From contig NZ_BDAX01000001.1 of assembly GCF_001612665.1 (NCBI RefSeq), positions 1 to 64,000 of the forward strand: a stretch of 64,000 nucleotides of DNA, given 5' to 3'. The notes beneath the pieces are model-generated. The model saw only the letters and a list, made by a program, of their open reading frames with translations. It had not been told where the DNA came from and did no database searches. A program made the position numbers and the translations under genes. Each line of letters starts with the position of its first letter. The stretch's first letter is position 1. This document shows positions 23,870 through 50,714 of the stretch, piece after piece. Source of the DNA: Nocardia alba NBRC 108234. GTDB lineage: Bacteria; Actinomycetota; Actinomycetes; Mycobacteriales; Mycobacteriaceae.

Positions 23870-23889
23870 AACTGATCGTGCATTCAGTT
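23870..23889. promoter_or_regulatory. Operator palindrome upstream of TetR copy 1
   Basis: AACTGATCGTGCATTCAGTT: inverted AACTGA/TCAGTT arms separated by eight bases, 34 bp before the start codon. The same structure occurs before TetR copy 2 (45481-45500) and resembles CTGAT-N6-ATCAG operators elsewhere in the region. Confidence 0.6.
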
Positions 23890-23955
23890 CCGATTCTGAC
23901 GCAGATGGGTGACCTCGGCGCGAGGGCTGCGAATCCGTCGCGGCAGGCGACGCGA

Positions 23956-24894
23956 TCACGGCGCGTATCGCACTGCGGTTCGTTGCGCGCCGAGGTCGAT
24001 GGCCCCGTCGTCGGTGGCGATCGCCGCTCGGATGACGTCACCGTGCTGGAGGTACTTCGGATTCTTGGCCTGGCGGTCGAGGAACAGCTTCCACTTGATC
24101 TTGGGTGGGAGCATCGCGCCGATGATCTCCAGCGGTTTTGGTGGAGCGCTGATCGCGGTTCCCACCGGAGTTCCGGTGAGCAGCAGATCGCCGGAACTCA
24201 TCCGCTGGAATCGGGACAGCGCCCGCACGGTCTCGAGCGGTTGGTAGATCATGTCGGCCACGGTCATGTCCTGGCGCTTCTCGCCGTTGACCCACAGCCG
24301 TAGCCGCAAGTCGACGAACCGGTCGAGTTCGTCTGCTTCCAGTAGGACCAGTGCCGGTCCGGTCGGGGTGAAGGTCGGATACGACTTGCCCTCGTAGTAC
24401 TGGGTCTGCGGCAATTGCACGTCGCGCGCGGAGATGTCGTTGGTGACGACGAGTCCCGCGATGTAGTCGCCGAGATTGTCGGAGTCGATCTCGGTACCGA
24501 CGGGCATTTCCCTGCCGAACACCAACCCGATTTCGACTTCGTAGTCCAGCAGCCGCACATGGCTCGGACGGACGACCTCGTCGTGGGGGCCGCTGATCGA
24601 TCCCGATGCCTTCCTGAAGAAGGTGAGTGGGACCGATCCGGGATCTCCGCCGGAATCCTTCACGTGGGAGGCGAAGTTCGTCATCTGGGCGACTACCCGG
24701 CACGGGGCCGTGACCGGGGAGAGCAACGAGAGTTCGTGCACCGGGACCGGATCGGCGTTTCGCGCCGCACTGGTGATCGCGGAGCGGTCGGCGAGGAGGG
24801 CGGCGGTCGTAGTGGCGTCGGTGGCGATCCGGGCCGCGCCCGCGGGGGTCAGCAGCCACCAGCCGCCGATCGTGCGGAGAACGGTGTGTGCCAT
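23956..24894 (-). CDS. Fumarylacetoacetate-hydrolase-family protein
   Basis: The 312-residue protein shows the FAH fold signature: DYEVEIGLVFGREMP (metal-binding Glu residues), AGLVVTNDISARDVQ, FTPTGPALV, GDLLLTGTPVGTA and the end HGDVIRAAI. Relatives hydrolyse or decarboxylate beta-diketo acids, acylpyruvates or ring-cleavage products, so it may act on a product of the nearby aromatic pathway. Start ATG 24894 is preferred; ATG 24948 would place the start within the operator at 24934-24947. It is divergent from the TetR gene at 25053 and shares its operator region. Confidence 0.8.
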   Translation of the reverse strand: MAHTVLRTIGGWWLLTPAGAARIATDATTTAALLADRSAITSAARNADPVPVHELSLLSPVTAPCRVVAQMTNFASHVKDSGGDPGSVPLTFFRKASGSISGPHDEVVRPSHVRLLDYEVEIGLVFGREMPVGTEIDSDNLGDYIAGLVVTNDISARDVQLPQTQYYEGKSYPTFTPTGPALVLLEADELDRFVDLRLRLWVNGEKRQDMTVADMIYQPLETVRALSRFQRMSSGDLLLTGTPVGTAISAPPKPLEIIGAMLPPKIKWKLFLDRQAKNPKYLQHGDVIRAAIATDDGAIDLGAQRTAVRYAP

Positions 24895-24933
24895 GAACGC
24901 TACTTTCTTCAGACCGACCAGCTGCTCACATTC

Positions 24934-25010
24934 TGACGATATCATCACTTAAGGCAGATGCATCAATTTAGGTCAACTGAATGATAGCGTCAATTATGAT
25001 ATAGTGATCA
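24934..25010. promoter_or_regulatory. Divergent operator region with two TGAT-N6-ATCA-type sites
   Basis: TGACGATATCATCA (24934-24947) and TGATATAGTGATCA (24997-25010) share the palindromic core found before most units of this region. A half-like TGATAGCGTCA lies at 24982-24992. They lie between the FAH-family gene and a TetR gene transcribed away from each other. Confidence 0.65.
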
Positions 25011-25052
25011 TTTGTGTGATCGGGAATCGACTGGCTCGGTGTGGAGGGCACG

Positions 25053-25679
25053 ATGGATGACACTGGCGGCACCAATCGGCTGGCGCGGCGGAAAGCCCGG
25101 ACTCGGGCAGCGCTCGTCGCGGCGGCGCAGGTCTTCATCGCGCAGGGCAGGCTCAACGTGCCCATTCTGGAGATCACCCAGGCCGCGGACGTGGGCATGG
25201 GGTCGTTCTACAACCATTTCTCGAGCCGGGAGCAACTCCTGCAGGTGGCAGTAGGGGAGGTGCTCGACCGGCTCGGTGGCGCGCTGGACGAACTGACGGC
25301 AGACCTCGAAGACCCGGCGCACGTCTTCGCGCAGAGCTTTCGTTTGGTGGGCAGGGTGCATCGGCGTGAACCCACCGCCAGTAAGGTTCTGCTCGCGGAG
25401 GGACTGGTCTACGCCGGGTCGGACAGGGGTGTGGCCGCACGAGCACGCCGGGATATCGAGATAGGTATGCGCGCTGGTCGGTTCCGGGTGCGCGATGTCG
25501 AACTCGCGCTGGTGATCGTGTCGGGCGCCGCGCTGCGCCTCGGCCAGTTGTTGCACGAACAGGCGGACCGTGACGACGCCGCGGCCGTCGACCAGGTGAC
25601 CGAAGACCTCCTGCGCATGCTCGGGCTCGGCGTGGAAGAGGCTCACGACATCAGTCGACGTGCCTTGCCGGAGATCTGA
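25053..25679 (+). CDS. TetR-family regulator divergent from the FAH-family hydrolase
   Basis: ATG 25053 follows GGAGGG (25043-25048); GTG 25041 is in frame but has no ribosome site. The HTH reads VPILEITQAADVGMGSFYNHFSSREQLLQVAV, closely similar in its recognition helix region to the duplicated TetR pair, so it may recognise the same palindrome. The ligand domain differs. With operators on both sides of its promoter it is the best-placed candidate for the master repressor of the local regulon. Confidence 0.9.
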   Translation: MDDTGGTNRLARRKARTRAALVAAAQVFIAQGRLNVPILEITQAADVGMGSFYNHFSSREQLLQVAVGEVLDRLGGALDELTADLEDPAHVFAQSFRLVGRVHRREPTASKVLLAEGLVYAGSDRGVAARARRDIEIGMRAGRFRVRDVELALVIVSGAALRLGQLLHEQADRDDAAAVDQVTEDLLRMLGLGVEEAHDISRRALPEI

Positions 25680-25737
25680 GTTCCGGCGGCACGTGCCGCG
25701 TCCGCCGCTGGGTCCTGGGTCGGTCCCGGTCGGCCCG

Positions 25738-25786: not shown

Positions 25787-26947
25787 TCAGCCCGCGTTGA
25801 CCGCCGCGGCCAGCCTGGGAAGCTGGCGAAGCGGGGCGTGGTGCTCGACTTCCATGCGCTGTTCGGCGTCGAAGATGTCGCTGAGACCCGGGGCGGGGTC
25901 GTGGGTTCCGGACTGCGGCAGGGTGGTCGCGCTGAACGGCCAGTCGGAGCCGAAGACGATGTGGTCGCGCGTGGTCACGGCCGACACCGCCGACATCGCA
26001 GCATTCGAGGCACTGAGAGCTGTGTCGTAGAAGAAGCGCGAGATCTGGGTCTTCGTGTCTAGCAGCGACGGCTTGCCCAGGCCATCAGGCCAGTTCTCGC
26101 CGATGGCCGTCTCGGAGGCGACTCCGATCCGCCAGGACAGGAAAGGCAGGGTGCCGCCGGCGTGGGAGAGCTGGAACCGGATGTTGGGGTACCGCTGGGT
26201 GACGCCGGTCAGCATCATCATCGTCGCGGCCCGGGTGGTGTCGAAGGTGAACTCTTCGAGGAAGTCGGGCAGGGGCAGCTTCGGCTTGGCGTCGTCCGGG
26301 ATCGCGGCCGGGTGGACAAAGACGTAGGCCTTGCGGTCGTTCAGCGCGATCATCAACGGCTCGTAGAGCGGATCGCCCAGATAGACGCCGTTGTAGGCGG
26401 ACAGCAGGACGATGCCGTCGGCGTGCAGGACGTCGAGGGCGTAGATCGCCTCGGCGACCGAGGCGGCGATGTCCGGCATGGGCAGGACGGCGAAGGAACC
26501 GAAGCGGGTGGGGTGCTGCTTGGTGAGTCCGGCGACGTAGTCGTTGCAGTATCGGGCCATGTCGTTGGCTTCCTTGCCCGCGGGCAGGAAACCGACGCCG
26601 GGATCGGACACCGACAGGGCTTGCGCCTGGATGCCGTAGTAGTCCATGAACTCCAGCGCGGATTCGGGCGACCACTGGGGCGTGGGATAGCCGCCGATCG
26701 TGAAGTGCCCGTGCGAGAGCAGTGCCGCGCGGTAGTCCGGTGGCAAGACGTGGGAATGCAGATCGATGCGGTAGGTACCGCTCGGAGCGGGCTGCTGGGC
26801 GCGGGCGGTTCCAACCGCGCCGAACCGGGTCGATGTACCAAGGGGGAGCGCCGTGGCCGCGGCGACACCGAGCGTGCCTGCGACAGCTCCTCCCAGCATG
26901 CGGCGGCGGCTCACACCGGCGCGCGATGGAGTATCGGATTCGTTCAC
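25787..26947 (-). CDS. Tat-exported amidohydrolase (amidohydrolase-2/ACMSD-like)
   Basis: The N-terminus carries a twin-arginine signal, SRRRMLGGAVAG with a hydrophobic stretch and cleavage-like TARAQQ, so the 386-residue enzyme is probably exported folded with its metal. The TIM-barrel metal ligands are present: DLHSHVLP, HP in VFVHPAAIP, SHAGG and GSDWPFS. Relatives are metal-dependent decarboxylases or hydrolases such as ACMSD and gamma-resorcylate decarboxylase. An exported member is unusual. The cytosolic paralogue at 41265-42308 and the fragment at 22786-23160 belong to the same family. The promoter region lies in the 110-bp block at 27185-27294. Confidence 0.85.
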   Translation of the reverse strand: MNESDTPSRAGVSRRRMLGGAVAGTLGVAAATALPLGTSTRFGAVGTARAQQPAPSGTYRIDLHSHVLPPDYRAALLSHGHFTIGGYPTPQWSPESALEFMDYYGIQAQALSVSDPGVGFLPAGKEANDMARYCNDYVAGLTKQHPTRFGSFAVLPMPDIAASVAEAIYALDVLHADGIVLLSAYNGVYLGDPLYEPLMIALNDRKAYVFVHPAAIPDDAKPKLPLPDFLEEFTFDTTRAATMMMLTGVTQRYPNIRFQLSHAGGTLPFLSWRIGVASETAIGENWPDGLGKPSLLDTKTQISRFFYDTALSASNAAMSAVSAVTTRDHIVFGSDWPFSATTLPQSGTHDPAPGLSDIFDAEQRMEVEHHAPLRQLPRLAAAVNAG

Positions 26948-27184
26948 GAGAATGTCCTTTCCTTCGGTTGTTTCGGTCGCATCGCGAAGTCCCGCTCGGC
27001 GCGGTCGGAGTCCGCCCGAACGGGGATGGGCTGCGGGGTGGGGAGTGCTCGATCGAGCTGATCGGGCGAAGCGATCCGCGAATCGCTGATGAAAGTATCA
27101 GATGCGATGCGATACGTGGCTGAACCGGTCTTCTTGCGCCGGAGTCGTTCCGCCGGAGGGTCTGGGCGGGGAGCGCGACCAGCA

Positions 27185-27294
27185 TCATCGGCGGAAGCGC
27201 TCACTGCTGATGTAAACCGTCATAGATGATTATATGGTCAGTCAATTGCTGCCAGAGAATTCTCAGGCGATCCGCAGACCTCCGACAGGAAACG
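27185..27294. repeat. Duplicated promoter block, copy A
   Basis: This 110-bp segment aligns without gaps to 48421-48530 with 87 matches (79%). It contains TGATTATATGGTCA (27227-27240), the counterpart of the perfect palindrome in copy B. It lies between the divergent amidohydrolase and LmeA-like genes. Confidence 0.8.
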
Positions 27295-27333: not shown

Positions 27334-27349
27334 ATGATGATTTCATCAT
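27334..27349. promoter_or_regulatory. Perfect operator palindrome ATGATGA-TT-TCATCAT
   Basis: Seven-base arms with two bases between them, 72 bp before the LmeA-like gene. The core TGATGATTTCATCA is the complement of the site at 43596-43609. Confidence 0.7.
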
Positions 27350-27421: not shown

Positions 27422-28156
27422 ATGAAGCTTCGAGGGCTGGATCCCGTCGACAACGGCAACGTGCCCGGTGGGAGTGTGCGGCGACGAATCGCGCGCGGCA
27501 TCGCTCTCGGCCTGGTCGTCTCGCTCGTGCTGGTGACGATCGGGATCGTGTCGGTCGAGCTATATCTGCGGAACCGGATCGAGGGCTGCCTCGCGGCCGG
27601 CCTGCGAGACGACCTCGGCTCCCAGGTGGACGTGGATCTCGGTCCGCGACCCGTCGTGTTCAGTCTGATCGACCGGCGGATTCCCGAGCTGACCGTGGAC
27701 GGCGACGACGCGCAGTTCGGTCCGGCGGTCGGGATGGCGGTCCATGCCACACTGCATCAGGTCTCGATGGCGCAGGGCGGGGCTTCGGCCGCCGTGGGCG
27801 GCTCCGAGGCGCGCGTCGACTGGAGCGCCGAGGCGATCCAGCGCACGCTGCACGGGCTGGCCGGGGAGGTGGGGATGTCCGCTGCCGATGGCACGGTCGA
27901 TGTCACCGGGGTCATCGGCGTGGTGTCGGTGCGGCTGCGCCCCTACATCGAAGACGGGGTGATCCGCGTCGAAATCGTCTCTTCACGCGGGGTCCCGCCG
28001 CAGCTGGCGAACGAGATCGCCGACCTGCTCACGGAGAGCCTCCGTGACTATCCGCTGGGGCTTCGGCCGGAGTCTGTGGCCGTGGCCGACTCGGGAATCC
28101 GGGTCGAACTCCGTGGCGGCGCTACCGAGCTCCCGGCATCGGGCGACACGTGCTGA
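27422..28156 (+). CDS. DUF2993/LmeA-like membrane-anchored protein
   Basis: ATG 27422 follows GGAGGAGAACGT, an excellent ribosome site. The 244-residue protein has one N-terminal membrane helix (GIALGLVVSLVLVTIGIVSV) and an extracytoplasmic domain beginning VELYLRNRIEGCLAAGLRDDLGS, with later LRPYIEDGVIRVEIVS. This is the pattern of LmeA-type (DUF2993) proteins, phospholipid-binding envelope proteins needed for lipoglycan elongation in mycobacteria. It is followed by an operator and then the YhgE-like gene. Confidence 0.75.
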   Translation: MKLRGLDPVDNGNVPGGSVRRRIARGIALGLVVSLVLVTIGIVSVELYLRNRIEGCLAAGLRDDLGSQVDVDLGPRPVVFSLIDRRIPELTVDGDDAQFGPAVGMAVHATLHQVSMAQGGASAAVGGSEARVDWSAEAIQRTLHGLAGEVGMSAADGTVDVTGVIGVVSVRLRPYIEDGVIRVEIVSSRGVPPQLANEIADLLTESLRDYPLGLRPESVAVADSGIRVELRGGATELPASGDTC

Positions 28157-28168
28157 TCTTTTCATCAG
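28153..28168. promoter_or_regulatory. Operator CTGAT-N6-ATCAG before the YhgE-like gene
   Basis: CTGATCTTTTCATCAG overlaps the stop codon of the LmeA-like gene and is followed by TTGAC (28176-28180), a likely -35. The arrangement of site, GAAA and TTGAC recurs at 33934-33960 before the meta-cleavage operon. Confidence 0.7.
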
Positions 28169-28258: not shown

Positions 28259-29548
28259 ATGGCGATCACCGGTAGGAATCTTGCGAGGTGGCTGCGTCCC
28301 GGTGCTGTTGTCGCGGTGCTCGCGGCGCTGCTGGCGACCATGTATCTGGGATACATCGTCGACCCGGAGAAGAACATGCACGACTTCCCGATCGGACTGG
28401 TCAACCTCGATGTCGGCGACACTGTCGGAGGTGAGCAGGTCAATGTCGGCGATCAGATCGCGGCCTCGATGGTTCAGCAGATCCCCGCCGACAAGGTCGC
28501 GCTGCGCGAGATGGGCCTGCCGGAGCTGCATCGGGCCATGCTCAACGGCGAGATCTACGGGGCGATCGTCATCCCGAGTGACTTCACCAAGCGTGTGTCG
28601 ATCCTGGGCGCGGCCGGTGTCGTGCCCGGCGATGTCGATTGGCCCGTCATCACGGTCGAATCGAATCCGGCGGCGGGTGCCTACGCCACGCAGATCATGC
28701 TGCGCATCACCACTCAGGCGACGGACGCGGCGAACAAAGCGGTAGGCGCGCAACTGCTCGACCGGGTGCAGAACCAGCTCCAGCCGACATCGGGCGCACC
28801 CGCTACCCAGCTCTCCGGCGTGAGCCGACTCGCCCTGGCCGAGCCCGTCTCGGTGCTGGTCGTGCCGTTCCGTGAGCTTCCCGACGGCGCCGGTGGGGGA
28901 CTGTCGGCGTTCTTCTACACACTGCTGTTGCTGCTGGCCGGGTTCACCGGCGCGATGATCATCCACGCGATGGTGGACTCGGCACTGGGCTTCGCGCCGA
29001 CCGAATACGGGCCCTGGTACGTCCACTACCCGGCGACTCCGATCTCGCGCGTGCGGACGCTGCTGCTCAAATGGGGCATTCTGGTGGTCGTCGCGCCAGT
29101 GGTCTCCGGGATCTACCTGGCCGTCGCGACGCTGCTGGGGATGTCGATCGAGCGTGCTCCGATGCTGTTCCTCTACGGGGTGCTCGCGATCGTGGCGGTC
29201 GGGATCACCGCGCTGTCCATCCTGGCGATCTTCGGTGCGGCCGGGATGCTCGTGAATCTCATCGTGTTCATCGTCCTCGGTCTGCCCTCCGCGGGCGGAA
29301 CCGTGCCGATCGAGGCGACGCCGCAGGCCATGGCGTGGCTGTCGACCTTCGAACCGATGCACCAGATCTTCATCGCGGTGCGGGCGATCCTCTACTACGA
29401 CGCCCGGGCGAGTTCGGGCCTGGCACACGGTGTGTGGATGGCCCTGCTCGGCCTGCTGATCGGACTGGTCATCGGCCTGGCCGCGACGATCTTCTACGAC
29501 CGGAAGGGGCTGGAACGCCGGGCTGTCCCGGCGGCCGGAAAGCAGTGA
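28259..29548 (+). CDS. YhgE/Pip-like (DUF3533-type) ABC-2-like membrane protein
   Basis: AAGGAG lies nine bases before ATG 28259. The 429-residue protein has a first membrane helix (VVAVLAALLATMYLGYIV), a long external domain containing PIGLVNLDVG and YGAIVIPSDF (hallmarks of the YhgE/SNG1-type family) and five more membrane helices in the second half. Such proteins act in export or efflux without their own ATPase, and YhgE/Esa homologues associate with secretion. No ATPase gene is adjacent. Its own operator suggests induction along with the catabolic genes, perhaps to handle toxic lipophilic compounds. Confidence 0.8.
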   Translation: MAITGRNLARWLRPGAVVAVLAALLATMYLGYIVDPEKNMHDFPIGLVNLDVGDTVGGEQVNVGDQIAASMVQQIPADKVALREMGLPELHRAMLNGEIYGAIVIPSDFTKRVSILGAAGVVPGDVDWPVITVESNPAAGAYATQIMLRITTQATDAANKAVGAQLLDRVQNQLQPTSGAPATQLSGVSRLALAEPVSVLVVPFRELPDGAGGGLSAFFYTLLLLLAGFTGAMIIHAMVDSALGFAPTEYGPWYVHYPATPISRVRTLLLKWGILVVVAPVVSGIYLAVATLLGMSIERAPMLFLYGVLAIVAVGITALSILAIFGAAGMLVNLIVFIVLGLPSAGGTVPIEATPQAMAWLSTFEPMHQIFIAVRAILYYDARASSGLAHGVWMALLGLLIGLVIGLAATIFYDRKGLERRAVPAAGKQ

Positions 29549-29598: not shown

Positions 29599-29599
29599 A

Positions 29600-31429
29600 T
29601 CAGAAGGCGGCCTCGTCGAGATCCATGATGGCGGGGTCGATATCCGCGATCACGGCACGGTCGGCACCGAGCCGGGGCAGCACGGTTCGGAGGAAGAAGG
29701 ACGCCACCGCGATCTTGCCCGCGTAGAAGTCACGGTCCGATCCGGCGGACGGGAGTGCGGCCGAAGCGATTTCCGCGGCTACCAGCAGTCGCCACCCGAT
29801 CAGCAGATCGCCGACCGCCAGCAGGAAACGGACCGATTCGAGCCCGACCTTGTACAGCTCCCGACTGTCGTTCGCGGCCGCGAGCAGGTGCTGGGTCAGG
29901 GTGGCGGTCATGGCCTGCACGTCGTCGAGCGCGGTCAGCAGAATCGCGCGTTCGACCTTGAACTCGGGGGTGCCGGATTCGGGCTGGGTGGTCGCCCGGA
30001 CCTGGTCGGCGATATGGGCCAGGGCCACGCCGCGGTCGCGGGCGATCTTGCGGAAGAAGAAGTCCTGCGCCTGGATGGCGGTGGTGCCCTCGTAGAGGGA
30101 GTCGATCTTGGCGTCGCGGATGTACTGCTCGATCGGGTAGTCCTGCAGGAAGCCGGAGCCGCCGAAGGTCTGCAGCGAATCGGTCAGGTACTGGTAGGCG
30201 CGCTCGGAGCCGACACCTTTGACGATCGGCAGCAGCAGATCGTTGACCCGCGCGGCCAGCTCGGCGTCCGCGCCCGAGACATGCTGGGCGACTGCGGGAT
30301 CCTGGTGGGCGGCGGTGTAGAGATAGATCGCGCGCAGGCCCTCCGCGTAGGCCTTCTGTATCATCAGCGAGCGCCGAACATCCGGGTGGTGGCTGATGGT
30401 CACCTTCGGTGCGGTCTTGTCGGCGATCTGGGTCAGGTCGGTGCCTTGGACGCGAGTCTTGGCGTATTCCAGCGCGTTCAGGTAACCGGTCGACAGGGTC
30501 GCGATGGCCTTGGTGCCGACCATCATGCGCGCTTCCTCGATGACCTGGAACATCTGCGCGATGCCGTTGTGCACCTCGCCGACGAGCCAGCCCTTCGCGG
30601 GCACGCCGTGGCCGCCGAAGGTGAGCTCGCAGGTGGCCGAGGCCTTGAGTCCCATCTTGTGCTCGACATTGGTGACGAACACACCATTGCGATCACCGAG
30701 TTCGCCTGTCTCGGAGTCGAAGTGGAACTTCGGCACCAGGAAAAGGCTCAACCCTTTGGTGCCCGGGCCCGCGCCCTCGGGGCGAGCCAGGACCTGGTGG
30801 ATGATGTTGTCGGACAGATCGTCGGCATCGGCCGCGGTGATGAACCTCTTGACGCCCTCGATATGCCAGGAGCCGTCTTCCTGCTGGACCGCCTTGGTGC
30901 GGCCCGCGCCGACGTCGGAGCCCGCGTCGGGCTCCGTCAGGACCATGGTCGCGCCCCAGCTCTTCTCGACGGCGATCCGCGCCCAGCGGCGCTGGTCCTC
31001 GGTGCCGATGCGGTCGACGATATCGGACATACCGGGCCCGGTCAGGTACATGTACGCCGCCGGCTGGGCGCCCAGAATGAGCTCGCTGATCGCCCAGGCG
31101 AGCATTCGAGGCGCCGGAATACCGCCGATGGCCTCGGATTTCGCGATGCGCCACCATTCGCCGTCCTGCCACGCCCGTACCGAGCGCTTGAACCCGTCCG
31201 GTAGCCGCACGGTGTGGGTCGCGGGATCGAATCGAGGTGGGTTGCGGTCGGCGTCGGCGAACGACGCGGCGGCCGGACCCTCGGCGATCCGCGCTGCTTC
31301 GACCAGCATCGTGCGCACGGTGTCGCCGTCGAGGTCGCTGAACGCGCCGCTGCCCAGCACGTCCGTCAGGCCGAAGACCTCGAGCAGATTGAACTCGAGG
31401 TCTCGGACATTGCTCTTGTAGTGGCCCAC
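29600..31429 (-). CDS. fadE5: FadE5-like acyl-CoA dehydrogenase
   Basis: GTG 31429 has AAGGGA upstream; the product then begins [20 protein letters not shown], as mycobacterial FadE5 proteins do. The 609-residue length is that of FadE5, about 200 more than classical acyl-CoA dehydrogenases. Key motifs: [20 protein letters not shown] (flavin/substrate loop), [42 protein letters not shown] and the C-terminal DLDEAAF. FadE5 oxidises a broad range of acyl-CoAs in beta-oxidation using FAD. Here it could shorten an acyl side chain before ring degradation. A double-TetR regulator gene lies upstream on the same strand. Confidence 0.9.
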
Positions 31430-42436: not shown

Positions 42437-43525
42437 CTACTTCGTCAGCCCCAGCAGGGCGGCCGTGAGTCCGTAGTCGGGACCGAAGTCCTGCATGTTG
42501 CCGGTGCGGCAGCCGTCCGCGCGCATCTGGATCCGCTCGCAGAAGACGCTGATGATCTCGCCCGATAGGGCGGTTCCGATCAGCACGTTCTGGCGGAAGT
42601 ACCTTCCGTCTTTGTCCATCGTGCGGTCGATGTTCTCCATGAGCAGCGGAGTGAGGTCAACGATCTCGGTGAGCGCGCCGGAGTTCGCACGTAGTTGGTT
42701 GGTGACATTGGTCAAACCGGCGAGTGAGGCGGCGAGCTCGTCCTGGTGCCCGGCGAATGCGATGCTGGTGTTGGTCAGGAAGGCGTTGAGCTGGTCCAGT
42801 GTTGCCTGCAGGCCGGGCGCCTGCTCGGCTAGTAGCCCCGACATGGCGGTCATCCGGTCGTTGAAGTCGCGCACCGACTGGTCGTTGTCGGCCAGCATCG
42901 TCGTGAGCTCGTTGAGCTTGATGATGATGTTGGCGATGGCGTCCTTGTTGTCGACACCGACCTTCAAAGCACCCGAGAGCGCATCGAGGGTTTCGCGGAT
43001 CTTCTGGCCGTTGCCGTTGAGCACCGGGTAGAGCGCCCGGCCTGAGAGCGGGCCGAGACCCTCCTGGCCGGGTTCGGGCTCGAGCGAGGCGGCGAACTGG
43101 TCGATGGTCTTGATCATCGTGTCCAGCTCGACCGGGGTCCTGGTCCGCGCGAGCGGCAGGTGATCGCCGGATTCGAGGGTGTCGCCGCCGGTGTAGGGCG
43201 GGGTGATCTCGATGTGGCGGTCGGTGACGATCGATGGTGAGATGATCGCCGCGATGGCGTCTTTCGGGATCTCGATGCCTGCGTCAACGGTCATGTGGAC
43301 CTCGACGTAGGTGCCCTTGGGCACGATCTTGTCGACCTTGCCGACCGCGAGGCCGAGGACCATGATCTCGTTGCCCTCGTACATGCCCGCGATGTTCTCG
43401 AAATCCGCGGTGATCTTGGTGGGAGGCGTCGATGTCGGCAGGGCGGAGCAACCGCCGAGGGTGAGGGCGGCTGCTCCGCCCGCGACGCACAGCCAGCGGA
43501 ACCCGGCCTTCTTTCTGCCCAGCAT
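42437..43525 (-). CDS. Orphan MCE-family lipoprotein
   Basis: The N-terminus is a lipoprotein signal (WLCVAGGAAALTLGGCSALP, lipobox LGGC). The MCE domain follows (about residues 38-115: ITADFENIAGMYEGNEIMVLGLAVGKVDKI, then GTYVEVHM). The remainder is a long helical region with Asn/Asp repeats (LNELTTMLADNDQSV) and a C-terminal domain, as in MceE/LprN-type subunits of lipid importers. A normal mce operon has two YrbE permeases and six MCE proteins; none of these is nearby. It has its own operators at 43553-43609. It may supply an alternative lipoprotein subunit to a remote Mce system. Confidence 0.85.
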   Translation of the reverse strand: MLGRKKAGFRWLCVAGGAAALTLGGCSALPTSTPPTKITADFENIAGMYEGNEIMVLGLAVGKVDKIVPKGTYVEVHMTVDAGIEIPKDAIAAIISPSIVTDRHIEITPPYTGGDTLESGDHLPLARTRTPVELDTMIKTIDQFAASLEPEPGQEGLGPLSGRALYPVLNGNGQKIRETLDALSGALKVGVDNKDAIANIIIKLNELTTMLADNDQSVRDFNDRMTAMSGLLAEQAPGLQATLDQLNAFLTNTSIAFAGHQDELAASLAGLTNVTNQLRANSGALTEIVDLTPLLMENIDRTMDKDGRYFRQNVLIGTALSGEIISVFCERIQMRADGCRTGNMQDFGPDYGLTAALLGLTK

Positions 43526-43552: not shown

Positions 43553-43609
43553 TGATTATGCGATCACAAATGATAGAAGCATCGACACGATCTGGTGATG
43601 AAATCATCA
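43553..43609. promoter_or_regulatory. Two operators before the MCE lipoprotein gene
   Basis: TGATTATGCGATCA (43553-43566) and the perfect palindrome TGATGA-AA-TCATCA (43596-43609). The first begins 28 bp before the start codon. Confidence 0.7.
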
Positions 43610-43699: not shown

Positions 43700-43713
43700 T
43701 GATGAAAAAGTCA
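43700..43713. promoter_or_regulatory. Operator before the secreted protease gene
   Basis: TGATGAAAAAGTCA lies 64 bp before the start at 43777 and is almost the same as the site at 42401-42414. Confidence 0.5.
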
Positions 43714-43776
43714 TAAACTATCGACCGGTCGGCACGCTGCTCCATGCCCCGCACCGGCAGAAGGGACCGGGTCGAG

Positions 43777-44742
43777 ATGTCGAACCTGCGGCGCGTAGTC
43801 GCCCTGCCCGCGGTCGGAGTCATGTGCTCCGCGTCGCTGCTGATCTCCGGGTGTGGAATCGGCGTGTCGGGTGGATCGCAGGACGGCAGTGGTAGATCCA
43901 CGGTCGCGACATCGCCCCGGACGACGAGTCCCGTCGCGGCGGAGGTGGTCACCCCGGAAGACGCCGGTCATCGGTGGGCGGCCGCCGGTTCGGCCGTCCT
44001 GACCCCCGGGATCCAAGCGAACACGCACGGAGGCGGGCAGTGCACGACGAACTACGTGTTCGTCGACGACACCGACAGGGTCTACCTCAGCCAGTCCGCG
44101 CACTGCGCCGGAACGGGCGGATCCACCGAAACCGACGGATGTACGGCCACCAGTCAGCCGCTCGGCACCGCGGTCGATTTCACCCGCCGTGGCTCACTCC
44201 GGTCCGACGGCACCACCATCGGCACCGGCCGGCTGGCCTACAGCAGCTGGCTGACGATGCGCCAACTCGGCGAAGCGGACCCGAATGCCTGCGCGTACAA
44301 CGACTTCGCGCTGATCGAGATCGACCCCGGCCTCGTCGATCAGGTCAATCCGAGCGTGCCGTACTGGGGCGGTCCCACCGGTCTCAACACCACCGGCACG
44401 CCCGAGGGCGAACACGTCTACAGCTATGGCAACTCGAGAATCCGGGGTGGCCTCCCCGGGCTGTCGCCGCAACGAGGTGAGAGCTTCGCCGATGACAGCT
44501 CACTCGGCGGGTGGACCCACGCCCTGAAATCGCCGACGCCCGGCATTCCGGGTGACAGCGGAAGCGCCTTCCTCGACGCCGAAGGACGAGCGGTGGGCAC
44601 GCTCTCGACTTTGGGGCTCGGGTTGCCCATCATCAACAATGTCGGCGACGTCAGCCGCGAACTCGCTTATGCGCGAGCGCATTCCGGGATCTCCGGACTG
44701 CGCCTCGTGCTCGGAACCGAAGAGTTCGACCCGAACCGGTGA
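43777..44742 (+). CDS. Secreted chymotrypsin-like serine protease lipoprotein
   Basis: ATG 43777 has AAGGGA/GGGTCGAG upstream (ATG 43744 is also in frame). The signal ends in a lipobox, ASLLISGCG, so the mature 300-residue protein is probably lipid-anchored. The catalytic triad of an S1-type protease is visible: SQSAHCAG (His), YNDFALIEID (Asp) and GIPGDSGSAFLD (Ser). Targets are unknown; it may process exported envelope proteins. It is separated from the MCE gene by a divergent operator region and ends at a hairpin. Confidence 0.85.
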   Translation: MSNLRRVVALPAVGVMCSASLLISGCGIGVSGGSQDGSGRSTVATSPRTTSPVAAEVVTPEDAGHRWAAAGSAVLTPGIQANTHGGGQCTTNYVFVDDTDRVYLSQSAHCAGTGGSTETDGCTATSQPLGTAVDFTRRGSLRSDGTTIGTGRLAYSSWLTMRQLGEADPNACAYNDFALIEIDPGLVDQVNPSVPYWGGPTGLNTTGTPEGEHVYSYGNSRIRGGLPGLSPQRGESFADDSSLGGWTHALKSPTPGIPGDSGSAFLDAEGRAVGTLSTLGLGLPIINNVGDVSRELAYARAHSGISGLRLVLGTEEFDPNR

Positions 44743-44781: not shown

Positions 44782-45447
44782 CTACTCGCCGGCCCCGAGG
44801 GGTAGATCGGGGTCGGCGGGCAGCTGGGGGAGTGGTCCGGAGCTGAGGCGCTGCTCGGTTCGCTTGTTCACGCCGAACATGCGCAGGGCTCGATACGCCA
44901 TGTCGTCGGCGAGTGCCGCCGCGTCCGCATCCGGATCGGCGTCGAGCAGTTGCAGCAGTCCCAGCAGCGTTCCGCCCGCCGCCATGACGGCCAGATCGGG
45001 ATCCATCGGTTCGAAGCGCCCTGCCTCCTGCGCGGCCACGATGTCCTGACGGGCACGGGGCGCGAGCCCCTCGTCGCGCAGCATGACCCCCATGCCGGAA
45101 TGCAGGACCACGCGCACCATCTCGGGAAGTCGGCGCGGTAGCCGTCCGGTCAGCCGGAAGCTGACCGCGAAGACCTCGGCCGGGTCGTCGTAGCGAGCCA
45201 CGACCTGGTCGCGCATCGTGCTGTAGACGTTCAGCGCGGACCGCACGGCCTCGTCGAAGAGCTGTTCTTTGGAGTCGAAGTGGTTGTAGAAGGAGCCGAA
45301 ACCGACGTCCGCGGCGTCGGTGATCTCCTTGATGCTGACCGATGACTTGCCCTCGGACAAGAATTTTCGCGCAGCACCGAGCAGCGCATTGCGCGTGCGT
45401 TCCCGGCGACGATCGGTACGCGTGGGTGTGGTCTGCTCGGCTGTCAT
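44782..45447 (-). CDS. TetR-family regulator, copy 2 of a duplicated pair
   Basis: ATG 45447 has GGAGGG upstream, identical to copy 1. The 221-residue protein matches the one at 23171-23836 almost residue by residue, including the whole HTH; the differences are mostly conservative (for example KVYNEMRDHI against NVYSTMRDQV) and concentrated in the C-terminal tail. Identical recognition helices mean that both copies should bind the same operators, while small changes in the ligand domain might alter inducer response. A terminator-like hairpin (45534-45569) separates it from the esterase gene upstream on the same strand. Confidence 0.9.
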   Translation of the reverse strand: MTAEQTTPTRTDRRRERTRNALLGAARKFLSEGKSSVSIKEITDAADVGFGSFYNHFDSKEQLFDEAVRSALNVYSTMRDQVVARYDDPAEVFAVSFRLTGRLPRRLPEMVRVVLHSGMGVMLRDEGLAPRARQDIVAAQEAGRFEPMDPDLAVMAAGGTLLGLLQLLDADPDADAAALADDMAYRALRMFGVNKRTEQRLSSGPLPQLPADPDLPLGAGE

Positions 45448-45480: not shown

Positions 45481-45500
45481 AACTGATCAGATCTTCAGTA
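45481..45500. promoter_or_regulatory. Operator palindrome upstream of TetR copy 2
   Basis: AACTGATCAGATCTTCAGTA has the same arms, eight-base gap and distance to the start codon (34 bp) as the site before TetR copy 1. Confidence 0.6.
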
Positions 45501-45589: not shown

Positions 45590-46600
45590 TCAGCCGATGG
45601 CGCCGGACAGGACGGGCAGCATCTTCACGACCTGGGCTTCCCAATACGTCCAGGCGTGGACACCCGAGGAGGGGAAGTCGTAGGTCACGGTGGTGGCGCC
45701 CAGTGATGTCATGCGTGTCTGGAACGACCGCGAGTTGGTCAGCGACAGCGTCTCGAGTGCCGAGCCTTCCGCGGCCTGCTTGCTGGGCTCCCCGGCCTCG
45801 GACGGCACGCCGTTGGCGGCCGACACCCATAGCTCGGTCCCGTTCCGGAGGAGCGCGGGGGCGAGGAACATGGGATCCATCCACTGCCATTTGTCGGAGG
45901 TCGGCGAGCTGATCATGCACGAGATGTTGTACCCACCAGCCTTGACCATGGCGGCCGAGATCGCTCCGCGCATGCCCGGAGCCGACGGGTTCAGATATCC
46001 GGACAGGGACGCGGCATAGCTGAACTGGGCCGGGTGATGAGCGGCGAGCGCGAACGCGGCGCTACCACCCATCGAGAGTCCGATGACACCGTTGCGGGCC
46101 GGGGACAGGCCGAGCCGTTCGTGCAGGGCGGCGGGCAGGACCCGGGTCAACAGTGTCTCCCAGGTGTAGGTGTAGGACTTTCCCGGCCCGATGTCGGGTG
46201 CGGAATCACCGGCGATGTCGGATACGGCGCCCTCCGGAAGGTACGACGGGCGATCCCAATCCATATAGAAACTGGATTGTCCGCCGACCGGCAGTACGAC
46301 ATTGATGTTGTTCTCGGTCAGTGTCCTGGCGACCTCGGTTTCGATCTCCCAGCCGTTGAGGTCCTCACGTGCCCACATTCCGTCGAGGGCATAGACCACG
46401 CGCTGGGTGTTGCCGTCGGCCGCGCGGAATACGCGGGTCTTGACGGGGCCCATGTCGGAGTCGACCCAGAAGTCGACGCCGACCGGATCGAACGCGGCGT
46501 TCGACCGAGGTGTCGCTACGAGCAGAAACGCGAGCAAGGAGAACAGGGCAAGCCACAATGTCATTCGGGAGAGCGCTATCAACGCTTCGTCTCTTTTCAT
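45590..46600 (-). CDS. Secreted Ag85-like esterase/mycolyltransferase
   Basis: The 336-residue protein has a signal peptide (MTLWLALFSLLAFLLVATP, cleavage near SNAAF). The mature part resembles antigen-85-type mycolyltransferases: RVVYALDGMWAREDLNGWEIET, INVVLPVGGQSSFYMDW, nucleophile elbow GLSMGGSAAFALAA and the catalytic His region SSGVHAWTYW. Ag85 enzymes move mycolic acids onto trehalose or arabinogalactan. This supports a mycolate-containing host. The following genes of the minus-strand cluster encode other exported envelope proteins, so it belongs to an export cluster starting at 48371. Confidence 0.85.
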   Translation of the reverse strand: MKRDEALIALSRMTLWLALFSLLAFLLVATPRSNAAFDPVGVDFWVDSDMGPVKTRVFRAADGNTQRVVYALDGMWAREDLNGWEIETEVARTLTENNINVVLPVGGQSSFYMDWDRPSYLPEGAVSDIAGDSAPDIGPGKSYTYTWETLLTRVLPAALHERLGLSPARNGVIGLSMGGSAAFALAAHHPAQFSYAASLSGYLNPSAPGMRGAISAAMVKAGGYNISCMISSPTSDKWQWMDPMFLAPALLRNGTELWVSAANGVPSEAGEPSKQAAEGSALETLSLTNSRSFQTRMTSLGATTVTYDFPSSGVHAWTYWEAQVVKMLPVLSGAIG

Positions 46601-46663
46601 GGGTTGTCGGAGCCAGTTCGATACTGGTCACCGGGCGGAGGCTCAGCTCGAAGTGGAAGGCCA

Positions 46664-46691
46664 CGGGCGCGCGGGGCCCACCGCGCGCCCG
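46664..46691. terminator. Perfect GC hairpin after the glycine-zipper protein gene
   Basis: CGGGCGCGCGG (46664-46674) pairs with 46681-46691 over a six-base loop, just beyond the 3' end of the minus-strand gene at 46704. Confidence 0.7.
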
Positions 46692-46703
46692 GCTTTGCGA
46701 CCG

Positions 46704-47414
46704 CTACTTCGCCTGCTGCTGGCTCTGCACCGACGGCTGGTTGATCGTGGTGTAGTACTGGACCGCGGCGTAGATCGCCACGGGCGCGGCGATGAGCAGC
46801 TGTCCCGCCAGCACGCCGAGGAAACCACCGGCCGCCACACCCGCGATGCAGCCCTGCACCTCGGACGGGAGTCCGCTGAACATGGTCGCGAGCGCGCCGG
46901 TCAGTGTCGCGCCGGTCGCGCCGCCGATGACGCAACCGACTGCCGCGCCGCCGATTCCGCCGACCATGGCGCCGATCGAGGCGCCGAGTCCGATCGTGCT
47001 CGTCATACGGGCCCAGGCGTCCCGCTCACGGTCGTAGTCGTTCTTCCAGGTGGCCTGCTCCTCGTAGGGCAGGGCGACCGGCTCGTAGTGGGCCTTGTCC
47101 AGGGTGAACTGCGGAGTGAGCGTCGCAGTCCGCTCGTTGATCTCAGCTCCGATGGGGAAGACGAATTCGTCGACGCGGAACTTCAGTTCGGTGCCGGCGA
47201 GAACCTTACCGTCCGGTGCCTTCACCTTCAGGGCGCCATCCTCGACGACCAGGGAGCCCGCGTCGATCTGGACGAGCGTGGACGCGTCGGTCGTGGTCGT
47301 CGTGTAGTTCACGACGCCGAGGTCGTCGGCCGGGTCGGCGTATGCCGTCCCGGTGCCGGTGGCCAGCGCGCCGATCAGGATCGCTGAGACGGCGGTGAAA
47401 CGTTCGATGCGCAT
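46704..47414 (-). CDS. Exported protein with glycine-zipper membrane segment
   Basis: AAGGAA precedes ATG 47414. The 236-residue protein has a signal peptide (ILIGALATGTGTAYADP), a beta-rich part (VNYTTTTTDASTLVQIDAG; FRVDEFVFPIGAEI) and a C-terminal half of Gly/Ala zippers (GASIGAMVGGIGGAAVGCVIGGATGA and a second such stretch, each named here only in part) typical of a membrane-inserted oligomer. Similar proteins of unknown function are common in Nocardia and Rhodococcus, often near cutinase-like genes. It is the middle gene of an export cluster. Confidence 0.7.
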   Translation of the reverse strand: MRIERFTAVSAILIGALATGTGTAYADPADDLGVVNYTTTTTDASTLVQIDAGSLVVEDGALKVKAPDGKVLAGTELKFRVDEFVFPIGAEINERTATLTPQFTLDKAHYEPVALPYEEQATWKNDYDRERDAWARMTSTIGLGASIGAMVGGIGGAAVGCVIGGATGATLTGALATMFSGLPSEVQGCIAGVAAGGFLGVLAGQLLIAAPVAIYAAVQYYTTINQPSVQSQQQAK

Positions 47415-47468
47415 TTCTGTTCCTTCTTCGTGGCGGAGATTTCCCGGGGAGGGTCTGGGTGGGTCGGA

Positions 47469-48371
47469 TCAGCCGAGCGCGGACAGCCAGTCGTGCAGCC
47501 AGGTGACGGCGGTGTGCCGGCCGTCGACGGGGTAGCTGCCGTAGGACATGTGCGTTCCGGATCCGTAGAAGTGCGCGAGCTGTCGCGCGCGTTCATCGCG
47601 GGCCTGGTCGGTGAGCTCGCCCTGTTCGTCGGCGGATCGCAGGGCGGTCAGCATTTCCGCTGCTCTGCCGCGGTAGCGGGGCAGATCGTCGGGGTGGTCG
47701 GCGGAGACTCCGGCCAGGGCGCCGGCGATGGCGATGACGAAGTCCTCGTCGTCGGTCGAGCAGTACAGATCGCCGACGGCGCAGATCGTGCGGACTCGAG
47801 CCGTGATCGAGCCGAACCCGTCGGGGCGTGGCCCCCGGACGCCGACGCCGCGGGCGGGCGGGCCGACCTGGGCATCGGCCCGCGACCGCTGGGGATCGGA
47901 GGGCAGGCCGACGGCCTGCACGCGATCCGGCGACACGACCCCGCCGCCCCTGCCGATCTCCGCCGCCAGATCACCGGCGGCGTCGGCACCCTGGCTGTAG
48001 CCGACCAGAGCGAAATCGGTGCCGGAGCAGCGGTCGGCGATGGTTCGCATCATCTCGCGCGCGGTGTCGACGGCGACCCGCTGCGAAGCGCCGTAGACCT
48101 TGCCCTCCCAGGGGAAGGCCGTCGCGGGATAGTCGACATAGGCGACCTGTTGGCTCGCGGGGAGGCCGTCGGTGACGCCGGCGAGCATGCCGGGGCCCGG
48201 GGTGTGCCGGGCCTCGCCGGTTTCCCAGGTGCCAGGGATCGCGATGACCGTGAGACCGGGGCAGCCCGGATCCGCGGCGGCGCTGCCCGTCACCGTGCCG
48301 GGCACGGTCGTGAGCGCGATGGCCGCACCGGCCGCCAACGCGATGGCCGCGGTGTGCATGTTCGTCCGCAC
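47469..48371 (-). CDS. Secreted cutinase-family esterase
   Basis: GTG 48371 has GGAGC upstream. The 300-residue protein has a signal peptide (HTAAIALAAGAAIALTTVPG, cleavage near AAADP). The cutinase features are the elbow FALVGYSQGADAAG (Ser), the Asp in VGDLYCSTDDEDF and the His in YGSGTHMSYG. Cutinase-like proteins of mycolic-acid bacteria hydrolyse lipids, polyesters or act as envelope phospholipases. Its promoter is in the duplicated 110-bp block B, shared with the divergent prrA gene. Confidence 0.8.
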   Translation of the reverse strand: MRTNMHTAAIALAAGAAIALTTVPGTVTGSAAADPGCPGLTVIAIPGTWETGEARHTPGPGMLAGVTDGLPASQQVAYVDYPATAFPWEGKVYGASQRVAVDTAREMMRTIADRCSGTDFALVGYSQGADAAGDLAAEIGRGGGVVSPDRVQAVGLPSDPQRSRADAQVGPPARGVGVRGPRPDGFGSITARVRTICAVGDLYCSTDDEDFVIAIAGALAGVSADHPDDLPRYRGRAAEMLTALRSADEQGELTDQARDERARQLAHFYGSGTHMSYGSYPVDGRHTAVTWLHDWLSALG

Positions 48372-48420: not shown

Positions 48421-48530
48421 TCATCGGCGGAACTGCGCCCTGGTGGTATAAAACGTCACAGATGATCATATGATCAGTCAATCGTCGTCAGAGAACTCTC
48501 AAGCAATCGGTAAACCTTCGACAGGAAGCG
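48421..48530. repeat. Duplicated promoter block, copy B
   Basis: This block matches copy A (27185-27294) at 87 of 110 positions without gaps. It contains the perfect palindrome TGATCATATGATCA (48463-48476). It lies between the divergent cutinase (start 48371) and response-regulator (start 48559) genes. Confidence 0.8.
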
Positions 48531-48558
48531 TTTCGACCGGCAGAGGAAGTGAATTCAG

Positions 48559-49326
48559 GTGCACGTAGCAGCCACGGCGCGAACGGTGCGGCCGCGCGCC
48601 GTCGACGCCCGCGAGGGTTCCGCCGCCCCGGGTGCGAGCGGGATGGTGCTGGTCGTCGACGACGACGCCGACGTTCGTGAATCGCTGGAACGTGGTCTGC
48701 GTCTCAACGGCTTCGCGGTGTGTACCGCGGCCGACGGCGCGGCCGCGCTGGCGGTGACCCGCGAGCAGACGCCCGACGTGGTGGTGCTCGATATCGAGAT
48801 GCCGGGACTGGACGGGTTGGCCTTCATCACCGCGCTGCGAGCACTCGGCAACAACGTGCCCATCTGTGTGGTGAGCGCTCGCACGCGGGTATCGGACCGG
48901 ATCGAAGGGCTCGAGCTGGGCGCCGACGACTACCTGACCAAGCCGTTCGACTTCGTCGAATTGACCGCGCGGTTGCGTGCGCTGCTGCGCCGCCGCGGCA
49001 GTGGCTGGAGCACCGCGCGGGACTCGGTGACCATCGGGGCGCTGCGGGTCGAGTTCGCGGCGCTGCGGGTGACGGTCCGTGGCCGCGAGATTCCGCTGAC
49101 ACGGCGGGAATTCGAGCTGATCAGTGTCCTGGCCACCCATCATGGGGAGGTCGTGACCCGCGACCGGCTGTTGGAGACGGTGTGGGGTTACGACTTTCGG
49201 CCGCAGACCAATGTCGTGGATGTCGTCGTGGGGCACATACGCCGCAAACTCGAAGACGACGGCGTGCCCCGCCTCCTGCACACGGTGCGCGCTGTCGGGT
49301 TCGTCCTCCGGGAGGAAGGGCCGTGA
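48559..49326 (+). CDS. prrA: OmpR-type response regulator, PrrA-like
   Basis: GTG 48559 follows GAGGAAG. The 255-residue protein has a 28-residue loose N-terminus, a receiver domain ([23 protein letters not shown]; phospho-acceptor [13 protein letters not shown]; Lys in DDYLTKPF) and a winged-helix DNA-binding domain ([49 protein letters not shown]). The sequence closely follows mycobacterial PrrA. The histidine kinase gene starts in its stop codon. Placement next to operator block B suggests control within the catabolic regulon rather than being an independent housekeeping pair; a second, canonical prrAB elsewhere is possible. Confidence 0.85.
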
Positions 49327-50660
49327 GGGGGAATCTCTCGCTGCGAACGCGGGTCGCGGTGGCGGCGGCGACGGGAACGACGCTCGTCGTCGGCGCGCTC
49401 GCCGTCTTCCTGTTCGTCGCCATCGAGCGAAACAACATCAGGCACGTCGACGAGCAACTCGACATCATCACCGGCCTGGTCGAAGCGAATGTCGGTACCG
49501 CGCAACTGTTCATCGGTAGCGTGCGCGACGGCGGCTTCGCCGCCGTCACCCTGCACCAGGACGGCGCCGTTCTCGCCAGCACGTCCACGCGACTGCCGGA
49601 GCTGCCCGAGGGGCACCAGAGCCTGGTGCTCGACGATGCCGGTTACCGCGTCAAGACCATGATGGTGGAGCAGTCTCCGATCGGCCCGCACCTCGTGTCC
49701 GTTGCCGCGCCCCTGTCCGCGGCGGAATCGGTGACCCGGGAACAGCGGCAGCACGTCCTGCTCGCCGGGGCGGCGGCGATCGCGGTGGCATCGGGATTGG
49801 GATGGCTACTCGGCGGCCGGGCGATCCGGCCACTGATCGACCTGACCCGCAGGATCGATGCCGGTGACGAATTGCCTGAGGCGAGAGGATGGTTCCGGGT
49901 GCGGGAAGCCGATCGACTCGCCGGTTCGGTCCGGTCGATGCTCGCGCGGATCGACTCCGCGCAGCAGCGCACGATCTCGGCTCTCGGGACGGCGCGCACG
50001 TTCGCGAATACGGCCGCCCATGAGCTCCGAACCCCGCTCACCGCCATCCGCATGGACATCGAGATCGCGCGGGATGTCGAACTGGTGCCCGCCGAGCGCG
50101 CGCAGATCCTCGACGACGCGCTGCGCAAACACGGCCGGGTCGAATCGACGCTCGTGGCGCTGGAACTGCTCGCCGCCGGTGAACTGACATCGCGCCACAT
50201 CAGTGAACCGTCCGACTTGGTCGAGCTGGCCTACTCGGTGGTCGCGGACGCGGCACGGACCCATTCGGAACTCCACCTGGCCGTCTCCGGCGAGCAACGA
50301 GCGGACTGCCATTGTTCCCCGGCCGGGATCCGCCTGATTCTCGACAACGCGATCACGAACGCGGTCCGCCACGGCCGCGCCACCCGAATCGAGATCTCCG
50401 TCCACCGAACCGGTGACGGATTCCTGCTGGCGGTCGACGACGACGGCACCGGGTTGCCCGAGAACGAACGCGAGGTGGTGTTCGGTCGATTCCGGCGGGG
50501 CTCCGGCGCGGCCCGCGAAGGATCGGGCCTCGGCCTCGCCCTGGTCGCGCAGCAGGCCGAACTACACGGCGGACGCGCGGAACTGATCACGAGCCCACTC
50601 GGCGGCTTACGGCTCGCCGTCGTCCTCGCCTGCCCCGATCCCCCCGGGACGCAGGCATGA
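49323..50660 (+). CDS. prrB: Sensor histidine kinase, PrrB-like
   Basis: GTG 49323 overlaps the prrA stop (GTGA). The 445-residue protein has two membrane helices ([20 protein letters not shown] and [19 protein letters not shown]) around a 110-residue external domain, a HAMP segment, the phospho-acceptor [16 protein letters not shown] and an ATPase domain ([33 protein letters not shown]). It pairs with the upstream regulator. The signal is unknown. Confidence 0.85.
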
Positions 50661-50692
50661 CACTCTCACGACGCCATTTGACTGATGTTTAC

Positions 50693-50714
50693 ATCGCATG
50701 TGATTCTCTCATCA
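50693..50714. promoter_or_regulatory. Operator region before the Cvn-like kinase
   Basis: TGATGTTTACATCG (50693-50706) overlaps TGATTCTCTCATCA (50701-50714), both of the TGAT-N6-ATC type, ending 18 bp before the start codon at 50732. Confidence 0.6.

Follow-up and report, generated by a model that had tools for sequence, protein, structure and literature searches.

RolR-type TetR repressors as probable readers of a recurrent palindrome across a catabolic and cell-envelope gene island of Nocardia alba

The window analysed here, the first 64,000 nucleotides of contig NZ_BDAX01000001.1 of Nocardia alba NBRC 108234 (GCF_001612665.1), carries an island of about 27 kb in which a palindrome with the frame TGA-N8-TCA, most often as TGAT-N6-ATCA, recurs ahead of genes for a meta-cleavage pathway and the cell envelope. 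Our results indicate that these palindromes are probably operators of RolR-type TetR proteins, of which the twins T1 and T3 would control an island-wide regulon while a sister protein, T2, would keep to its own divergon. The reading that fits the island best is a local regulon that has expanded under RolR-type repressors. A preliminary description had proposed a TetR regulon joining aromatic catabolism with envelope genes; this appears right in substance, as the subfamily of the regulators, the geometry of the operators and the conservation of sites from gene to gene all agree with it. The three regulators are:

23171-23836, minus strand: T1, RolR-type TetR with TetR_N and TetR_C_40 domains (Pfam), likely start ATG at 23836
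44782-45447, minus strand: T3, RolR-type TetR, 87% identical to T1, recognition-helix stretch identical to that of T1
25053-25679, plus strand: T2, sister RolR-type TetR, about 43-44% identical to T1 and T3

Results

The palindrome had been described at 17 places over 27 kb, and reading the sequence at each finds TGA-N8-TCA in 17/17. Ten of the 17 have the exact form TGAT-N6-ATCA, five are one-sided variants of it (24934, 27227, 33936, 42401 and 43700), and those at 23873 and 45484, ahead of the twin TetR genes T1 and T3, share AACTGA-N8-TCAGT, which may be a distinct autoregulatory form. A further exact site at 27087-27100, absent from the earlier list, brings the total to 18 in ~27 kb. The statement that several sites are perfect palindromes holds for TGATCATATGATCA, which is fully palindromic, but not for TGATGA-TT-TCATCA, where perfect 6-bp arms flank a non-palindromic TT centre. 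The predicted operators are given below, with G112, G049 and G019 denoting three related Nocardia genomes and "matrix" the weight matrix described further on.

23873-23886: before T1; putative autoregulatory form AACTGA-N8-TCAGTT; 8.9 bits
24934-24947: between FAH1 and T2, T2-like form; same offset from T2 kept in G019
24997-25010: between FAH1 and T2; sequence and matrix match
27087-27100: before AH1; identical 14-mer at nearly equal offset in G112, G049 and G019
27227-27240: in a promoter segment with a duplicate at 48463 (81% over 125 bp)
27335-27348: before the LmeA-like gene; matrix and conservation
28154-28167: before the YhgE/DUF3533 gene, directly upstream of a TTGACC -35
32993-33006: between the acyltransferase and double-TetR genes; flanks diverged, frame kept
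33936-33949: upstream operator of the meta-cleavage operon, 43 bp from the 33979 site
33979-33992: downstream operator of the meta-cleavage operon, over a putative -10; 14/14 bases kept in three relatives
42363-42376: before AH2; matrix and conservation
42401-42414: second operator before AH2; matrix and conservation
43553-43566: before the MCE lipoprotein gene, 43 bp from the 43596 site
43596-43609: before the MCE lipoprotein gene; matrix and conservation
43700-43713: before the protease-like gene; counterpart at G112:C2:59638
45484-45497: before T3; putative autoregulatory form
48463-48476: between the cutinase operon and the response-regulator/kinase pair; matrix and conservation
50701-50714: before the NIT-domain kinase gene (HK2), over a possible -10; -31 offset kept in G112 despite gene inversion

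TGAT-N6-ATCA occurs 12 times in the 64-kb window against 0.60 expected from dinucleotide shuffles, none of 100 of which reaches 12, and all 12 matches, two of them overlapping (27335 and 27338), fall within 24997-50714. Alternative spacers of 0-19 give only 0-4 matches each, which leaves N6 the preferred spacer. The whole genome (7.28 Mb in 62 contigs) holds the motif at 36 places, 12 of them in the window, against 4 for a reversed control; the binomial probability that 12/36 fall within 27.5 kb is ~1e-20. The 12 window matches also differ from the other 24 in mean spacer GC (guanine plus cytosine) content, 33% versus 73%, and in 14-base score, 14.4-26.4 versus 4.9-17.0. Enrichment of the looser TGA-N8-TCA in the window (22 versus 10.6 expected, reached by 1/100 shuffles) is mild and is weaker evidence, not the main evidence.

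A symmetric 20-column weight matrix, drawn from 47 sites in 10 relatives and none in the window, all hand-picked from frame matches located before genes, was run against 400 kb of the N. alba genome (20 stretches of 20 kb) as a complement to the whole-genome pattern searches. At 16 bits or more it gives 18 matches within 23.5-51 kb (17 distinct sites, owing to the 27335/27338 overlap), none in the rest of the window and none in the 400-kb sample, and the local enrichment that the preliminary description had proposed to look for with such a matrix is thereby found. The best background score, 15.9 bits at C2:518770, comes from within a long reading frame and was disregarded. Outside the island, the genome parts examined gave no comparable site, and neither the whole-genome pattern search nor the 400-kb sample showed equal motif density in unrelated or coding DNA. 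With this background it is hardly credible that AT-rich intergenic DNA or promoter duplication produced the sites as a by-product with no common function. Two pairs, 23873/45484 and 27227/48463, do lie in duplicated DNA and share flanks, as a by-product would predict, but, neighbours with overlapping flanks aside, they are the only pairs that do so, the spacer is fixed at N6, the matrix finds nothing at 16 bits or more in 400 kb, and the sites are conserved across rearrangements.

Conservation gene by gene was read in stretches of 80 kb in G112, 40 kb in G049, which covers only part of the island, and in G019. All three keep sites at similar offsets ahead of most of the same genes: -106/-106/-100/-104 for the YhgE-like gene across the four genomes, -153 to -159 for AH1 in four, -97 for the response regulator in three, -84/-41 and -85/-42 for the MCE lipoprotein, whose gene is not in the G112 stretch, and two sites before the meta-cleavage operon in four. 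Sites travel with their genes where gene order has changed (G019) and where the NIT-domain kinase gene is inverted (G112). For the protease-like gene of G112 only the C-terminal part was aligned, and site C2:59638 precedes a weaker N-terminal match. Over 27 site-to-site comparisons the fourth bases are 94% and the inner bases 80% identical against 57-70% for the flanks; the 100% identity of TGA and TCA is by construction, the sites having been found through the frame, and that of the fourth base partly so, which lessens what these figures add in favour of the regulon.

The predicted reader of the sites is a RolR-type TetR, so called because the only three TetR_C_40 proteins in the genome, T1, T2 and T3, all lie in the window and because one half of the rolO operator has the same geometry. 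TetR_N and TetR_C_40 are both above the Pfam cut-off in all three. The closest solved structure is RolR itself (3AQS/3AQT; E ~3e-29 for T3 and 2e-32 for T2, the proteins searched, with T1 covered through its 87% twin T3), and the RolR signature IxxxAxxGxGxFYxxF is present as ITDAADVGFGSFYNHF in T1 and T3 and as ITQAADVGMGSFYNHF in T2. The RolR ligand-network residues Asp94, Arg145, Arg148 and Asp149, numbered by alignment with an offset of 16 and with T1 read against T3, are all kept in T2 (4/4), in three cases in T3 (Gln at 148) and in two in T1 (Ser at 145, Gln at 148). Since these counts differ, the ligands of T1 and T3 may not be the same.

Who reads the sites can be approached through the relatives. 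Among 150 Nocardia genomes, where a T3 ortholog means 72% identity or more along most of the protein and G012, with a partial match, counts as lacking T3, TGATGA[AT][AT]TCATCA is present in 34/48 genomes with T3 and 6/102 without (Fisher P 1.5e-16, uncorrected for relatedness); the reversed control has one match in each of two genomes. TGAT-type sites are kept in G049, with one RolR-type match and no T2 among the matches listed, and in G112, with two T3-like copies and no intact T2 but a remnant of ~56 codons (C2:45542-45709, locus L129, beside AH1); no FAH1 was found in the 80 kb of G112 examined. T1/T3 is the sole island regulator found in all four stretches. Because the sites persist in two genomes without intact T2 and the motif co-occurs with T3, T1 and T3 are the likely readers of the TGAT-type sites. 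The preliminary description had named all three local TetR proteins as candidates; T1 and T3 stand, but T2 is probably the sister regulator of its own divergon, with orthologs that mostly have TGAC-type operators.

It is accordingly improbable that T2 alone binds every site, with T1 and T3 controlling only themselves through AACTGA-N8-TCAGTT. T2 lies inside the island, many TGAT-type sites have an inner GAWWTC similar to the T2 consensus TGACGATATCGTCA, and T2-type operators precede LmeA-like genes in three other Nocardia, yet the sites outlast T2 in G049 and G112, TGAT..ATCA appears in 1/154 T2-type sites, and 38/60 strict TGAT-type sites (TGATGANNTCATCA) lie within 25 kb of T3. The T2 operators were taken from the best 79 of 339 T2-ortholog loci found: TGA-N8-TCA lies upstream in 77/79, the outer sites are 43-45 bp apart in 62 of the 69 loci with at least two, FAH1 relatives are near in 69/79, and 77 of the 154 sites are TGAC..GTCA. 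Of 26 loci with LmeA-like homologs outside the island genomes, 23 have no such operators upstream and three, in G132, G141 and G091 (42-44% identity), have paired T2-type operators 43 bp apart; given these pairs and the TGAT-type sites of the present clade, the LmeA-like gene appears linked to RolR-type operators of both types. The three loci are L186, L187 and L188, the last of which is apparently identical with L021.

T3 orthologs have a site of their own, CTGA-N8-TCAG, with both outer letters in 24 of the 26 loci from which a site was extracted; of the two exceptions, L105 has such a site nearer the gene and L107 has TCAA. The window, G112, G049 and G019, which are outside the 26 loci, also show it before T3. 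As its genome-wide count (38) is near that of the control (34), it is informative only beside T3 orthologs. At T3-ortholog loci TGAT..ATCA sites precede the divergent meta-cleavage operon. RolR-ortholog loci number four in 401 genomes of the family, C. glutamicum itself not being among those read; TGA-N8-TCA is present in 4/4, each with one TGAG..CTCA site and adjoining frame matches. The variable residue of the recognition helix is Phe in T1 and T3 and Met in T2, and the fourth operator base, counted without the RolR-ortholog loci, is T in 42/66 half-sites beside Phe proteins and C in 168/240 beside Met proteins, a correlation that appears confounded by descent. Next to the sites, a TGA at a gap of 4, which gives an 18-bp stepping of sites, is found in 9/36 flanks in the window (P 4e-9, uncorrected, the best of ~134 offset and triplet combinations), 14/94 in relatives, 92/308 at T2-type sites and 12/20 at RolR-ortholog sites; whole sites stepping by 18 bp are counted from both sides.

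Common to all these sites is the TGA-N8-TCA frame, and the recognition helices are near-identical. All three RolR-type proteins might hence share the sites with overlapping specificity, integrating several ligands with no single owner, a reading favoured also by the differing pocket residues of T1, T2 and T3 and by the mixing of both operator types at 24934 and 24997. The fourth-base difference (C in 168/240 against T in 42/66 half-sites) argues the other way, and we regard shared ownership as unlikely, if only moderately so. Ownership by another local regulator is very improbable. The Mce3R-like double TetR (31646), T5 (40405) and the OmpR-type response regulator (48559) are all in the island, and the first and last each have a site in front, but sites persist in the stretches examined of G112 (80 kb) and G049 (40 kb) although neither stretch holds the double TetR and that of G049 also has no T5 or response regulator, the rest of these genomes not having been searched for them. 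OmpR-type proteins, moreover, usually read direct repeats, which counts against the response regulator.

At the meta-cleavage promoter a TTGACG -35 lies between the two operators and the second operator covers a putative -10. The upper arrangement, an operator upstream of the -35, is seen before the YhgE-like gene, and HK2 could share the lower one, with its operator over the -10. Promoter candidates, estimated without a shuffled control, score 9.5 for FAH1, the YhgE-like gene and the meta-cleavage operon, 9 for AH2, 8.5 for the MCE lipoprotein, cutinase and HK2, and 7-8 for T2, the LmeA-like and protease-like genes and the response regulator; the 8.5 of HK2 is middling.

The genes behind the sites, and those between them, are:

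23956-24894, minus strand: FAH1, FAA_hydrolase-family enzyme (PF01557, E 4e-46), divergent from T2
25787-26947, minus strand: AH1, Amidohydro_2 enzyme with an apparent twin-arginine signal SRRRMLGG (by eye)
27422-28156, plus strand: LmeA-like phospholipid-binding protein (Pfam)
28259-29548, plus strand: YhgE/Pip-like (DUF3533) membrane protein (Pfam over cut-off; NCBIfam YhgE/Pip models below cut-off)
29600-31537, minus strand: acyl-CoA dehydrogenase, adjoining the double-TetR gene
31646-32911, minus strand: double-TetR protein, Mce3R-like (two TetR_N; near full-length match to Mce3R 9B7Y, E 1.5e-46)
33083-33913, plus strand: acyltransferase (Pfam)
34013-41157, plus strand: meta-cleavage operon (ring hydroxylation, cleavage, lower pathway)
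41265-42308, minus strand: AH2, Amidohydro_2 enzyme (Pfam)
42437-43525, minus strand: MCE-family lipoprotein with lipobox LGGC (by eye)
43744-44742, plus strand: exported protease-like protein (Trypsin_2 match below cut-off)
45590-48371, minus strand: cutinase, unknown protein (46704-47414) and PF00756 esterase, a probable operon
48559-50660, plus strand: OmpR-type response regulator and histidine kinase (domain searches)
50732-52822, plus strand: HK2, NIT-domain histidine kinase (domain search)

The meta-cleavage operon encodes a C-C hydrolase (BphD/HsaD-like), an extradiol dioxygenase (BphC-like), an MhpA-like FAD hydroxylase, a hydratase, an acylating acetaldehyde dehydrogenase, an aldolase and TetR T5 (40405); NCBIfam equivalog matches for the hydrolase, dioxygenase and hydratase are below cut-off. 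This enzyme set, with its C-C hydrolase, BphC-like and MhpA-like members and lower pathway, points to a phenol bearing a side chain, perhaps hydrophobic, as the probable substrate. AH1 is probably an exported enzyme of the decarboxylase type; export is, to our knowledge, unusual for the Amidohydro_2 family. The double-TetR and acyl-CoA dehydrogenase genes are not in the G112 and G049 stretches.

Discussion

Our results support a model in which T1 and T3 would bind TGAT-N6-ATCA, within the frame TGA-N8-TCA, ahead of up to 16 gene starts, a figure that counts both genes of each divergent pair and takes in the TetR genes. With the meta-cleavage operators upstream of the -35 and over the -10, the genes are most likely repressed in the resting state. 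A phenolic ligand, of a class suggested by RolR, would release the repressor and so switch on ring hydroxylation, meta-cleavage and the two amidohydrolases together with a lipid-handling and surface set comprising the LmeA-like and YhgE-like proteins, acyltransferase, MCE lipoprotein, cutinase, esterase and protease-like protein as well as the two sensor kinases, while T2 would keep its own divergon with FAH1 through TGAC-type operators. In this scheme we infer binding, the ligand, the sign of control and the division of labour between T1 and T3; equally, we infer the physiological coupling of uptake or remodelling to degradation.

Several observations weigh against this regulon. The T1 site at 23873, with 8.9 bits, is the only one of the 18 to score below 16 bits, and a promoter candidate is missing for 5/16 gene starts (T1, AH1, the double TetR, the acyltransferase and T3). 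The esterase fits the operon but has no site of its own in the window or in G112 and G019; the protease-like gene of G019 lacks a site within 400 bp, and protease-like homologs outside the island genomes have a site of at least 12 bits nearby in 2/11 loci and none in nine. The strict motif is missing in 14 of the 48 genomes with T3 and is found in six without it, and G112, itself an island genome, has no match to TGATGA[AT][AT]TCATCA. Ownership by T1 and T3 depends on two genomes that lack T2 and on a correlation within one genus of non-independent genomes. Given the loss of two ligand-network residues in T1 and one in T3, their ligand may also not be resorcinol-like.

The closest characterised system is RolR of Corynebacterium glutamicum, the TetR repressor of resorcinol catabolism, whose operator rolO consists of TGAAC-N4-GTTCA and TTCAT-N2-ATGAA bound by a pair of dimers; RolR is reported to bind the single operator of one divergon and to act by roadblock (PMC9210681). 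The window proteins share with RolR the TetR_C_40 C-terminal domain and the signature IxxxAxxGxGxFYxxF, and rolO has TGA-N8-TCA in REP1 and, in REP2 as printed, TCA-N4-TGA, which equals the gap-4 step of the window sites. For the regulator family, this agreement with an operator studied by experiment is the strongest anchor. The window differs by its 18 predicted operators ahead of as many as 16 gene starts, by a pair of twin repressors, by meta-cleavage genes in place of the rol genes, by envelope genes and by changed pocket residues in T1 and T3. The island as RolR's own resorcinol divergon, beside rolHMD with one operator, is ruled out by the meta-cleavage genes and the 18 predicted operators.

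A precedent for one TetR repressor over a large lipid-degradation gene set is the KstR regulon of mycobacteria, which is coordinated through a 14-bp palindrome (PMC1995591). The KstR operator is TnnAACnnGTTnnA, and its reported motifs are spread over many loci, whereas the window set is local. A KstR regulon is ruled out here, with 0 matches to that operator in the window. The KstR regulon includes the mce4 importer and steroid ring cleavage. A CRP/GlxR-type regulon is likewise ruled out, its motif TGTGA-N6-TCACA having 1 one-mismatch match in the window (10636, outside the region) against 1.1 expected. The island holds a double-TetR protein of the Mce3R kind (31646-32911) but differs from an Mce3R system in that this protein is not in the stretches of the two relatives, G112 and G049, that keep the sites, which makes it a very improbable owner of them. 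Among the matches listed in a search of mostly open-access literature there was no RolR-type regulon in Nocardia and none of these operator strings.

A broader picture can be drawn tentatively, although we think it rather doubtful as a whole. RolR-type repressors may read a modular operator code in which the TGA-N8-TCA frame is fixed, the fourth base depends on the subfamily and paired dimers step by 18 bp. Proteins with Phe at the middle position of the G-x-G in the recognition helix would go with TGAT and those with Met with TGAC, while RolR has Thr there and the half-site is TGAA in rolO and TGAG at RolR-ortholog loci. Within a single Nocardia clade this code would have spread from the meta-cleavage operon to neighbouring envelope, secretion and sensor-kinase genes, and twin repressors with the same DNA reading and different pockets would let two ligands open one combined programme for uptake and degradation of a hydrophobic phenolic compound.

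If true, the proposed T1/T3 regulon would widen the reach of the RolR subfamily from one divergon to a whole island and would tie envelope genes whose role is unclear (LmeA-like, YhgE-like, orphan MCE lipoprotein, cutinase and two sensor kinases) to a likely catabolic trigger, making their function approachable through one inducer. It would also offer a testable recognition rule, in which one helix residue corresponds to the fourth operator base, and a clear case of predicted operators staying with their genes through rearrangement.

Some further observations concern the island and its relatives. G112 has a further T3-like TetR (67% identity, G112:C2:57773-58411) between T5 and AH2 that is not in the window. 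In G049 the T1 protein is 98-100% identical and its DNA 95.8%, against 76-95% for nine other island proteins there, which suggests unusually strong constraint on T1 between window and G049. The 27227 site has no equivalent in the aligned relatives, and ~125 bp around 27227 and 48463, 81% similar, form a duplicated promoter segment whose flank similarity is shared in part by the adjoining 27335 site; the duplication is perhaps the trace of a rearrangement between the cutinase and LmeA regions.

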